The notes under the pieces: model-generated
The model's database searches: none
What the model was told of the DNA's origin: nothing
Seen by the model: only the letters and a program-made list of their open reading frames with translations
Shown: piece after piece, positions 1 to 41,152 of the stretch
Layout of the letters: each line of letters starts with the position of its first letter
Numbering within the stretch: the first letter of the stretch is position 1
Translations under genes and position numbers: made by a program
Assembly (NCBI GenBank): GCA_003213165.1
Contig: QCNO01000003.1
Location: 85,009 to 149,008 of the forward strand
Length of the DNA: 64,000 bases
Reading direction: 5' to 3'
DNA from: OCS155 cluster bacterium AG-426-D23
GTDB taxonomy: Bacteria > Actinomycetota > Acidimicrobiia > Actinomarinales > Actinomarinaceae

Positions 1-802
1 TAACACCGTAAGCAAAACACTCTTCTGTTGTTAGAATACCTACGTTTTGTAAACGTCCTTTCCAAATTGGATTGTCAAGTAGCATATCATCGTAATCTTG
101 AAGTTTTTCAGGAATTATTTTTAAAATTTCTTCTATATCTTTTTGCCATCCATCAGGAAGATCTGCTGCTACTCCGCCTGGACGAATGTAATTATGGTTC
201 ATTCTTAGACCTGTAGTTTTTTCAAAAAAATTAAGTATTAACTCGCGCTCCCTAAATCCAAAAATCATCATTGATAAAGCACCTATATCCATTCCACCAG
301 TTGCCAGTGCAACTAAATGTGAAGATATTCTGTTTAGCTCTGTCATAAGAATTCTTATATTTTTTGCTCGATCTGGAACTTCGATCCCGACTAGTTTTTC
401 TGTAGTTAAGGAAAAGACCAGTTCGTTAAATAATGGAGATAAATAATCCATTCTTGTCGTATTTGTTGGACCTTGAAAATAATTTAACTCTTCTCCAGTT
501 TTCTCCATTCCAGTATGTAGGTATCCAATTATTGGCTTAACTCTTCTAACTACTTCTCCCTCTAGCTCAGCTTGTAATCTTAAAACACCATGAGTTGATG
601 GATGCTGAGGTCCCATATTTACAATCATTCTTTCATCATCAGAAGTATCTTCATCGATTACAAAATCATCGATGACATCTGTCCCTGTTTGAATTTTTAT
701 TTGTTTTTCATTTTCTTCTTCAAGCATTTTCTGAGAACCTTCATCAGTAGAAGAAATGTTCCAGCCACCTTCCTCGGAATTTGTTGCCCAGAAATCAAAC
801 AT
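1..802 (-). CDS. nuoD: NADH-quinone oxidoreductase subunit D (partial, 3' end outside window)
   Basis: This is the 49-kDa quinone-site subunit of respiratory complex I. The frame stays open to the window edge, so about 267 N-terminal residues are present of a family length near 400-440. After a charged leader of about 60 residues it shows NMGPQHPSTHGVLRL and IGYLHTGMEKT, both hallmarks of NuoD, then RISSHL and LRMNHNYIRPGG. I start at the ATG at 802. An in-frame TTG at 838, directly after the nuoC stop, would add 12 Lys-rich residues; neither has a clear ribosome binding site. It is fourth in a nuoABCD operon and should be co-transcribed from the Rex-controlled promoter upstream of nuoA. Identity is certain; the start is not. 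Confidence 0.93.
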   Translation of the reverse strand, partial: MFDFWATNSEEGGWNISSTDEGSQKMLEEENEKQIKIQTGTDVIDDFVIDEDTSDDERMIVNMGPQHPSTHGVLRLQAELEGEVVRRVKPIIGYLHTGMEKTGEELNYFQGPTNTTRMDYLSPLFNELVFSLTTEKLVGIEVPDRAKNIRILMTELNRISSHLVALATGGMDIGALSMMIFGFRERELILNFFEKTTGLRMNHNYIRPGGVAADLPDGWQKDIEEILKIIPEKLQDYDDMLLDNPIWKGRLQNVGILTTEECFAYGV

Positions 803-838
803 GTCTTTAAATTTATTTTTTTTTGTATCTTTCTTCAA

Positions 839-1252
839 TTATTCAACCTTTGGTGCATTCTTAAATTGGACTGGGATTCTGCCAGAACCATAATTTTTTC
901 TTAAAGGGTGGCCATTCCAATCATCGGGCATCAAAATTCTTGTTAAATCCGGATGTTCTAAAAAATTTATACCAAACATATCATAAGCTTCTCTCTCATA
1001 AAAATTAGCACTTGGATAAATATCAGTTATTGAGGGGATTGATAATTCTTCGTCGTCAACAAAAACTTTTACTGTTTTTCTTTCATTTTTTGATACTGAT
1101 AAGAACTGTACAACTACTTCAAATCTTGGCTCTTTTTTTCTAAACCAATCTACAACTGTGAGATCTACCATCATCTCGAAGCTTTCTGAATGTAATGACT
1201 CTACTAATTTTTTGTATTCTGCAACTGATGTATTAATAATTTCATAACTCAT
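839..1252 (-). CDS. nuoC: NADH-quinone oxidoreductase subunit C
   Basis: The 30-kDa peripheral-arm subunit of complex I. It carries the family signature [13 protein letters not shown] followed by [20 protein letters not shown] near residues 88-125. At 137 residues it is close to the minimal domain and lacks the long N-terminal extension of many actinobacterial NuoC proteins. Its ATG overlaps the nuoB stop in an ATGA junction, so the two are translationally coupled, and nuoD follows at once. Nothing in the sequence suggests a NuoCD fusion: a stop codon (839-841) separates them. Confidence 0.95.
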
Positions 1253-1710
1253 CTATTGATTTCACCACCCATAATTTTGTCATGTAAAGTTAAAATTCCA
1301 TGCATTAATGATTGTGGTCCAGGAGGGCAACCAGGAACATAAATGTCTACTGGAACAATATGGTCAACCCCTTGAACTAGCGCATAATTATTAAACATTC
1401 CACCAGTTGATGAACAAGCACCCATGGCAATAACCCATTTGGGATCAGCCATTTGGTCATAAACTTGTCTTAAAACGGGGGCCATTTTTTGAGAAACTCT
1501 ACCGGCAACAATCATCAAATCTGCTTGCCTCGGAGACGCTCTAAAAACTTCCATCCCGTATCTTGCTAAATCATATTTGGCACTTCCAGCTGCCATCATT
1601 TCAATTGCACAACAGGCAAGTCCAAAAGTTACTGGCCACATCGATTGTGTTCGAGACCACCTTACAGCTTTATCTATTGTTGTAGTCAGAATGTTGTCAG
1701 GTGTATACAT
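1249..1710 (-). CDS. nuoB: NADH-quinone oxidoreductase subunit B
   Basis: The subunit that holds the terminal [4Fe-4S] cluster N2 of complex I, which passes electrons to quinone. The four ligand cysteines are visible: the adjacent pair Cys33-Cys34 in [10 protein letters not shown], Cys99 in GACSSTGG and Cys128 in PGCPPGP. Its 153 residues match the usual core length. It overlaps nuoA by one base (TAATG) and nuoC by four (ATGA), so the run nuoA-B-C is tightly coupled in one message. Confidence 0.97.
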
Positions 1711-2114
1711 TAAGCAGCCTCTTTATTTATATCTTGCTTTAAATAACGTTCTCTTCTTGGAATATTCCAGTCGAGTACTCCTTTTTTCCAAACGTAATAC
1801 AAAGTCTCAAGAACAAAGAAAGTAAAAATAGAAATTGCCAATATTCCATACCAACCAAGGTCATTAAATCTTGTTGCCCATGCAAATAAAAATATTATTT
1901 CTATATCAAAAACTATGTATAACATTGCAACCATATAAAATTTAACTGGAAATCTCTGTGATGGCTCTACTTCAGGAAATATGCCACATTCATAGGGTGC
2001 TAACTTTTCAGGAGTTGCTTTTTTAGGAGATAATAAATAAGAGGCACCTAGTGAGACTAGTGCAAATCCAACAGCAACAACAAACATTACCAAAATTGGT
2101 AACCACTCAATCAT
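1710..2114 (-). CDS. nuoA: NADH-quinone oxidoreductase subunit A
   Basis: A three-helix membrane subunit of complex I. Hydrophobic segments lie near residues 3-28, 60-82 and 88-112. The loop between helices 1 and 2 has YECGIFP with the conserved Cys, and helix 2 begins [20 protein letters not shown] with the conserved acidic pair. The ATG at 2114 is set by a strong ribosome binding site (GGGAGGGAA, 2117-2125). It is the first gene of the nuo operon; the promoter and a perfect Rex operator lie directly upstream, so its synthesis should respond to the NADH/NAD+ ratio. Confidence 0.97.
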
Positions 2115-2127
2115 GTTCCCTCCCTAT

Positions 2128-2145
2128 TTGTGAAATTTTTCACAA
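2128..2145. promoter_or_regulatory. Rex operator in front of nuoA
   Basis: On the given strand the site reads TTGTGAA-ATTT-TTCACAA, a perfect 7+4+7 palindrome and an exact match to the Rex consensus (TTGTGAA-N4-TTCACAA). It lies 14 bases upstream of the nuoA ATG and just downstream of the -10 box, covering the expected transcription start, a position where a bound repressor blocks initiation. A rex gene lies 1.4 kb away. In Streptomyces coelicolor Rex is known to control nuo; here this is inferred from the site. Confidence 0.9.
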
Positions 2146-2151
2146 ACATTA

Positions 2152-2180
2152 CTTATATTTTACTAGCAAAATCATGTTAA
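2152..2180 (-). promoter_or_regulatory. nuoA promoter
   Basis: Reading the minus strand: -35 TTAACA (2180-2175), a 17-base spacer, then -10 TATAAG (2157-2152). Each box differs from the sigma-70-type consensus at one position and the spacing is ideal. The start would fall near 2145, inside the Rex operator. It lies between the stop of the upstream reductase (2194) and nuoA, so nuo has its own promoter. Confidence 0.75.
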
Positions 2181-3539: not shown

Positions 3540-3566
3540 TTTCATATCTCATTAGATTGTGCATTA

Positions 3567-4211
3567 GTGAAAGAAAACAAAAAAATTCCACCTGCAACGG
3601 TAAAAAGATTACCAATTTATCTTCAGTGTCTTGATCAGATTGACCCAAACGACATTGGCATTTCATCAAAAAAACTTGCAGAATTAGCCAAAGTTAATGA
3701 TGCTCAAGTTAGAAGAGATCTTTCACATTTAGGCACACTTGGTACTCGAGGCGTAGGATATGATATTTCAACATTAAGAAACCAGCTTCAACTAGAACTT
3801 GGATTAGTTGAAGGTTGGAGTGCTGTAATTGTTGGTGTGGGAAATCTAGGTTCTGCGTTAGCTCATTATGGAGGTTTCAAGGATAAAGGTTTCGGGGTTG
3901 TAGGATTGTTTGACGATGATCCAAAAAAAATTAATAGCCAAGTTGCAGGATTAGTTATCAAACCTTTAAGTGAATTAGAAGATTATTGTAATAAATTTAA
4001 TGTTGCAATAGGTATTATTGCAACTCCAGGAGAGTTTGCACAAAATGTCGCTGACCAATTAATTAATTGTGGTGTTAGATCTATACTTAACTTTGCTCCT
4101 GTACTTCTGAAGAATGTCAAAGATATACAAATTAGATCAGTTGACTTATCCCAAGAATTACAAATATTAAGTTATTATCTGGACCGACCGATACTAAAGG
4201 CTGTAGATTAA
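3567..4211 (+). CDS. rex: Redox-sensing transcriptional repressor Rex
   Basis: A winged-helix repressor that releases DNA when NADH binds. The N-terminal part has the Rex signature KIPPATVKRLPIYLQCL and the recognition helix region SKKLAELAKVNDAQVRRDL (residues about 36-54); the C-terminal Rossmann domain has VIVGVGNLGSALAHY (about 93-107) and ends in the family's domain-swap helix. I choose GTG 3567, which gives VKENKKIPPAT and 214 residues, the usual length; the frame extends back to a TTG at 3519 but those residues are unlike Rex and precede the likely transcript start. Its target is visible in front of nuoA. The stop overlaps the stop of the convergent MATE gene by four bases. Confidence 0.93.
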   Translation: MKENKKIPPATVKRLPIYLQCLDQIDPNDIGISSKKLAELAKVNDAQVRRDLSHLGTLGTRGVGYDISTLRNQLQLELGLVEGWSAVIVGVGNLGSALAHYGGFKDKGFGVVGLFDDDPKKINSQVAGLVIKPLSELEDYCNKFNVAIGIIATPGEFAQNVADQLINCGVRSILNFAPVLLKNVKDIQIRSVDLSQELQILSYYLDRPILKAVD

Positions 4212-39973: not shown

Positions 39974-41152
39974 ATGCTCACCGAGATAAGAAAAATTTCA
40001 AGCCTTCTTTTGTCAGTAGCTTTTTCTTCAATAGGTTTCATAGCTTCAATAACAGTTACCGTGCTGGCAGCAAGAGAAGTTTCTAATAATCCACTTTTTG
40101 TTGGCTTTCCAAATGCAGTAGGGGTAGGTGGTGCGGTCCTTGGAACGCGAATGATATATCTAATATCTAAATCTAATTCGCAACTTAATGCTCTTGCTTT
40201 TATTTTTTTAATAGGTGCTTTTGGAGGAGCAATTATGTTCTATAGTCTAATAATTGACTCTTTTGTGCTTCTGTTGTTAGGTGCTTTCGTCTTAGGCATT
40301 GGTCAATCGGCAACACTTCAAACCAGATACGCTGCTTCATTTGTGGCAGGTGCGAAATTTAAAGCTACTGCATTGTCTCTAGCAGTATGGTTTTCAGTTT
40401 TTGGGTCTATATTTGGACCACGTATGGTTGGTAGTTATTCAAATTTTTTTGAAAATATATTTAACTCAGAGCTAATCGTTGGTTATGTAATTGCGTTTGT
40501 TGGAATGCTATTTGCAGCCGCCTCTCTGTTCACATTTACTTCAAAAAAAAGTATTCTAAGGAGCCCAAGTGATTTAGAAGGTGAATCAAGTGATCAAAGT
40601 TCTGAAAGAAAAAATGGTAGCTTATTATCGCTACTTTTAGTTTTGAATCATTTCACAATGGTTGTAATAATGTCTGCTACACCATTGCATATACAAGATA
40701 TAGGTGAAACCGTTCAGCTGGTTGGAATTATTATTAGCTATCACACTTTAGGGATGTTTTTATTTTCACCGATTCTTGGAAATTATGTAGATAAATATGG
40801 ATACGAGAAATTTACATATGTGGGAACTGTAATTTTATTTATAAGTTGCTTAATTACTTTAATTAATTCTGGACCAACAGCATTAAAAATAAGTTTATAC
40901 CTATTAGGACTTGGATGGAATTTTAATTATGTTGCAATTAGTGCAGCTATTTCAAAATTTTCAATCAAATATAGGACTCCCCTAAACATAAAAAGCGATT
41001 CTTTTGTTTTCTTAGGAAGTTTTGTAGCTCATACATCCTTAGGCTTAAGTTACTTGTTAGTTGGATATAAAGGTTTATCTTTTGTCGGAATTGCTGTGAG
41101 TATTTTTTTATTTTACAATTTAAAAAATCTAAATAAGTTAAATATTGAATGA
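39974..41152 (+). CDS. Major facilitator superfamily transporter
   Basis: A 392-residue membrane protein with about twelve hydrophobic helices and a charged central loop (residues about 195-215). Features: NPLFVGFPNAVGVGGAVLGT after helix 1, LGIGQSATLQTRYAASFVAG in helix 4, and LGNYVDKYGYEKFTYVG, the MFS loop-2/3-like motif repeated at the start of the second half (near residue 275). Substrate is unknown; drug or metabolite export is likely. It is divergent from metK and overlaps the downstream glycosylase gene by four bases (ATGA). Confidence 0.82.
   Translation: MLTEIRKISSLLLSVAFSSIGFIASITVTVLAAREVSNNPLFVGFPNAVGVGGAVLGTRMIYLISKSNSQLNALAFIFLIGAFGGAIMFYSLIIDSFVLLLLGAFVLGIGQSATLQTRYAASFVAGAKFKATALSLAVWFSVFGSIFGPRMVGSYSNFFENIFNSELIVGYVIAFVGMLFAAASLFTFTSKKSILRSPSDLEGESSDQSSERKNGSLLSLLLVLNHFTMVVIMSATPLHIQDIGETVQLVGIIISYHTLGMFLFSPILGNYVDKYGYEKFTYVGTVILFISCLITLINSGPTALKISLYLLGLGWNFNYVAISAAISKFSIKYRTPLNIKSDSFVFLGSFVAHTSLGLSYLLVGYKGLSFVGIAVSIFLFYNLKNLNKLNIE

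Follow-up and report, generated by a model that had tools for sequence, protein, structure and literature searches.

An exact inverted repeat in front of the complex I operon of Candidatus Actinomarina is very probably an operator for the redox-sensing repressor Rex, which would hold complex I expression down until NADH levels go up. Actinomarina, an uncultured lineage that is widespread in the ocean, consists of streamlined marine photoheterotrophs with tiny genomes, yet it appears to have kept a letter-perfect predicted NADH switch. The assembly examined in this study comprises 964 kb in 18 contigs (86% completeness), and the window analyzed is a stretch of 64,000 nucleotides from it. Evidence throughout consists of sequence comparison. 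The relevant features of the window are as follows.

1 to 838, minus strand: start of nuoD (an ORF in locus L086), from which the operon continues to nuoN beyond the window
839 to 1252, minus strand: nuoC (PF00329, TIGR01961)
1249 to 1710, minus strand: nuoB (PF01058, TIGR01957)
1710 to 2114, minus strand: nuoA, which opens the NADH-type complex I operon of 14 genes (PF00507, E 5.8e-32)
2118 to 2124, minus strand: GGGAGGG, the Shine-Dalgarno sequence of nuoA, recognized from the sequence and kept in relatives
2128 to 2145, no strand assigned: TTGTGAA-N4-TTCACAA, the predicted Rex operator, located shortly after the predicted transcription start of nuoA
2157 to 2162, minus strand: TAAAAT, the probable -10 element (TAnAAT in relatives)
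2175 to 2180, minus strand: TTAACA, the -35 element of the initial annotation, weakly supported
3552 to 3572, plus strand: 21-base element across the rex start codon, holding the half-operator TTGTGCA
3567 to 4211, plus strand: rex, redox-sensing repressor (NF003992, 269.8 bits against a cut-off of 226; closest PDB chain a Rex, E 5e-46)

A pattern scan of the window located TTGTGAAATTTTTCACAA at positions 2128 to 2145, 13 bases from the nuoA ATG (2114, minus strand), with zero mismatches to TTGTGAA-N4-TTCACAA, confirming the perfect palindrome that the initial annotation had placed before nuoA. Base composition alone predicts 0.0008 exact matches for the window and 0.012 for the whole assembly, where three were found. 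When the arms were permuted to give 210 palindromes including the real one, the other 209 had zero occurrences in the window. Matches with three or fewer mismatches numbered 11 against an expected 10.9, and therefore only the exact match stands out. That agreement with expectation is what one would see if the palindrome had arisen by chance in an AT-rich genome, but the probability of such an origin is negligible given how rarely an exact match is expected, the invariance of the site among 39 promoters (see below) and the absence of the reversed pattern from all 148 genomes of the class Acidimicrobiia. One-mismatch sites within coding sequence (in L004, and in L005 at window position 40641) were discarded as chance.

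The nuoA promoter was compared across 39 sequences, made up of the window and 38 relatives, which are all the close relatives having that region. The site, whose presence in close relatives had been proposed as a test of the Rex reading, occurs in every one of these promoters; the 14 positions of its two arms do not vary at all, whereas mean identity over the 50 bases upstream of the operator is 63%. A TAnAAT motif ending approximately 11 bases before the operator is also found in 39 of 39 promoters, and because of this it is the likelier -10 element, the one chosen earlier being probably wrong. The -35/-10 pair first described, TTAACA and TATAAG separated by 17 bases, is literally present in the window, but TATAAG is in place in just one of the 39 promoters and TTAACA lies within 50 bases in 14, so that the pair was mostly rejected; the distance from TTAACA to the conserved -10 is 12 bases. 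On these grounds, transcription of nuoA probably starts a few bases ahead of the operator, which would then cover roughly +4 to +21.

This position places the palindrome within the predicted 5' leader, where it could also form an RNA hairpin (10-bp stem, -9.7 kcal/mol, z -2.15) and act as such instead of as a protein-binding site. However, folding is common to any palindrome, the same sequence precedes unrelated genes, and it occurs in tandem before rhodopsin genes. In addition, the arms never vary and hence offer no compensatory changes, which indicates that the sequence and not the pairing has been kept; a function as a hairpin is thus very unlikely.

Several observations point to Rex as the protein that recognizes the palindrome. 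As the initial annotation stated, rex lies nearby, its GTG start codon (3567) being 1.42 kb from the site. The rex product scores above the cut-offs of several NCBIfam Rex models, carries both domains of the family above cut-off (an N-terminal winged helix, PF06971, and a C-terminal Rossmann/CoA-binding domain, PF02629), and can be aligned with Rex structures over its Rossmann domain. Rex was detected in 38 of 42 genomes of the genus, and the four cases of non-detection may be gaps since these genomes are only 51-94% complete. The palindrome also includes the core TGTGA-N6-TCACA of the CRP/FNR/GlxR family, as bound by CRP/GlxR in other Actinobacteria, and whiB1, another gene bearing the operator here, is a CRP target in mycobacteria. 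Nevertheless, a site for that family is extremely unlikely, as the 42 genus genomes yielded no CRP/FNR-type protein: a cNMP-binding domain was detected in none of them, whereas the same search gave hits in 10 of the 14 genomes used as controls. The sole HTH_Crp_2 match in the genome under study is a 228-aa ORF that lacks a cNMP domain and resembles a DtxR-type iron regulator. Moreover, two arm letters that are dispensable for CRP, the T at the outer end and the A in seventh position, are invariant in 39 of 39 promoters. With Rex present in most genomes and the cNMP-binding domain in none, Rex is the likely binder. At rex itself, a full operator was sought and none was found. The 21-base element TTAGATTGTGCATTAGTGAAA (window 3552-3572), which spans the rex start and contains the half-operator, is invariant in 39 genomes; it may act as the promoter of a leaderless rex message or in autoregulation.

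Complex I control by Rex has precedent in Streptomyces avermitilis, in which Rex acts as a repressor that binds at nuoA1-N1 and wblE through the consensus TTGTGAANNNNTTCACAA, has been footprinted on nuoA1 and binds less in the presence of NADH; its regulon there includes nuoA1-N1, wblE, cydA1B1CD, atp, rex-hem, hppA and ndh2 (PMC5355995). Since Rex represses nuoA1-N1 there, the nuoA operator described here is a further case of a known control. The two systems have in common the consensus as well as complex I and wblE/whiB1-like targets, which suggests that these targets represent an old actinobacterial Rex core. Likewise, in S. avermitilis validated sites with 1-3 mismatches are in use, the footprinted rex operator has the TTGTGCA arm of the menA site reported below, and at cydA1, too, transcription starts upstream of the operator (PMC5355995). 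They differ in that the nuoA1 operator of S. avermitilis overlaps the -35 region whereas the Actinomarina operator follows the -10, and in that Actinomarina rex is without a full operator; menA-menG, the 64-aa protein and rhodopsin (see below) are absent from the S. avermitilis targets considered here (PMC5355995). The Actinomarina site also fits the Staphylococcus aureus Rex operator, TTGTGAAW4TTCACAA, letter for letter, but Rex governs fermentation and nitrate respiration in that organism, not complex I (PMC2883068).

By analogy with studied Rex proteins, from which binding, release by NADH and repression at nuoA are carried over, Rex would occupy the operator just downstream of the nuoA start and block RNA polymerase when NAD+ predominates. 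As NADH builds up, Rex would take up NADH and leave the operator, allowing the 14-subunit, NADH-oxidizing complex I to be produced; this direction of control is inferred from S. avermitilis and other Rex proteins. The operon belongs to the NADH type, as it contains nuoE, nuoF and nuoG (L086 15872-16486, 14586-15875 and 12277-14589, respectively; ORFs named from sequence). A second nuo cluster on contig C3 (about 50.5-59.0 kb; L087 513-8962) is without E, F and G, and no Rex operator was found where it was sought at that cluster. An EFG-less nuo cluster has been reported earlier, and F420 was suggested to be its partner (PMC7771536). The predicted NADH switch is thus found only on the NADH-oxidizing complex I, with none on the EFG-less paralogue.

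The genome-wide motif scan that had been suggested as a check returned a small, coherent bioenergetic set of targets. The three exact copies in the assembly precede nuoA, a whiB1/wblE-like gene and a gene for a 64-aa Cys-rich protein. Every one of the 42 genus genomes contains between one and five exact copies and zero of the reversed control pattern, and exact matches occur in 22 Acidimicrobiia genera, the genus itself included. The 66 exact-copy loci that were fetched precede five kinds of genes, namely the 64-aa protein (24), whiB (21), nuoA (15), rhodopsin (4) and a 157-aa protein (2), numbers that mirror the choice of fetched loci and are not frequencies. The WhiB protein whose gene carries the operator has WhiB1 as its closest PDB match. 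On the far side of this operator (L001/L083) from whiB, at a distance of 24-46 bases, lies a divergent GDPD-like gene that may be regulated too. The 64-aa protein has conserved Cys and His residues and no match in Pfam or NCBIfam; downstream of its gene are those encoding an HMA-domain protein and a P-type ATPase for a heavy metal, probably copper. At this locus (L084 5233-5463) the operator is TTGTGAATATATTCACAA, and the spacer is nearly invariant as well. Of 297 genomes from the phylum, 62 encode homologues of the 64-aa protein, and a paralogue is present on contig C8 of the assembly studied here; the homologues outside the genus had no nearby site at two or fewer mismatches. A one-mismatch copy, TTGTGAAATAATGCACAA, lies on contig C7 between menA-menG and a divergent ABC transporter (L085 3174-3191), upstream of menA-menG, and is identical in eight of eight genomes. 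The menA-like gene encodes a PNPOx-UbiA fusion whose resemblance to MenA stays under the NCBIfam menA cut-offs; a gene for a MenG/UbiE-type methyltransferase accompanies it. In two genomes, an exact operator is located approximately 100 bases before the gene for the 157-aa protein (L131 1552, L139 1477).

Both tests of the Rex-complex I reading that could be run support it, but the regulon extends beyond complex I; most likely nuoA-N, the whiB1/wblE-like gene, the 64-aa Cys-rich protein and menA-menG are all under the same Rex switch. The small number of regulators presumed by the initial annotation agrees with the published description of Actinomarina as having little regulatory capability, with no two-component systems and two sigma factors (PMC7771536); the main text of that paper, which describes these genomes, makes no mention of Rex. 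The link between the operator and nuoA is hard to trace beyond the genus: when nine nuoA regions from other Acidimicrobiia were inspected, a site immediately ahead of the gene was seen in the nearest of them (L074) alone, and it had two mismatches.

Operator-like sites with 0-2 mismatches were also identified upstream of MACR rhodopsin genes in 21 of 30 regions from the genus (L153-L182), a count that overstates the number of events because related sequences are not independent. Permuted palindromes averaged 0.14 matches in the same promoters, and none but the real one exceeded three; this comparison was chosen after the sites had been seen and describes their strength. Most of the sites lie some 30-40 bases ahead of the start codon. 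Three genomes (L153-L155) contain two perfect tandem operators together with divergent rhodopsin and photolyase genes, and all nine members of one clade (L174-L182) carry TGTGAA-CGT-TTCACA, with a spacer of three bases, one short; the best match at the L171 promoter has three mismatches. The rhodopsins of 12 other Acidimicrobiia genomes had no site at three or fewer mismatches. No rhodopsin gene was found in the 86% complete assembly studied here, but contig C7 begins inside dsbB, which adjoins rhodopsin in a relative, and the gene therefore probably falls in an assembly gap.

The operators at rhodopsin promoters suggest redox control of the light-driven proton pump; if they work, expression of the pump would be coupled to the respiratory redox state. 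The balance tips slightly toward Rex controlling MACR rhodopsin and menaquinone synthesis as well, in which case a single NADH sensor would coordinate light-driven pumping with complex I and the quinone pool. A literature search of a partial library found no paper linking Rex to rhodopsin. What is new is the occurrence of Rex-type sites before the genes of a WhiB regulator and of menaquinone synthesis, and before rhodopsin genes of relatives, the complex I site being already known in Streptomyces. Finally, two of the loci compared, L024 and L036, are titled Chloroflexi (SAT182) and Flavobacteriaceae (NAT175), respectively; their DNA is of the Actinomarina rex-nuo type, and the titles look wrong.
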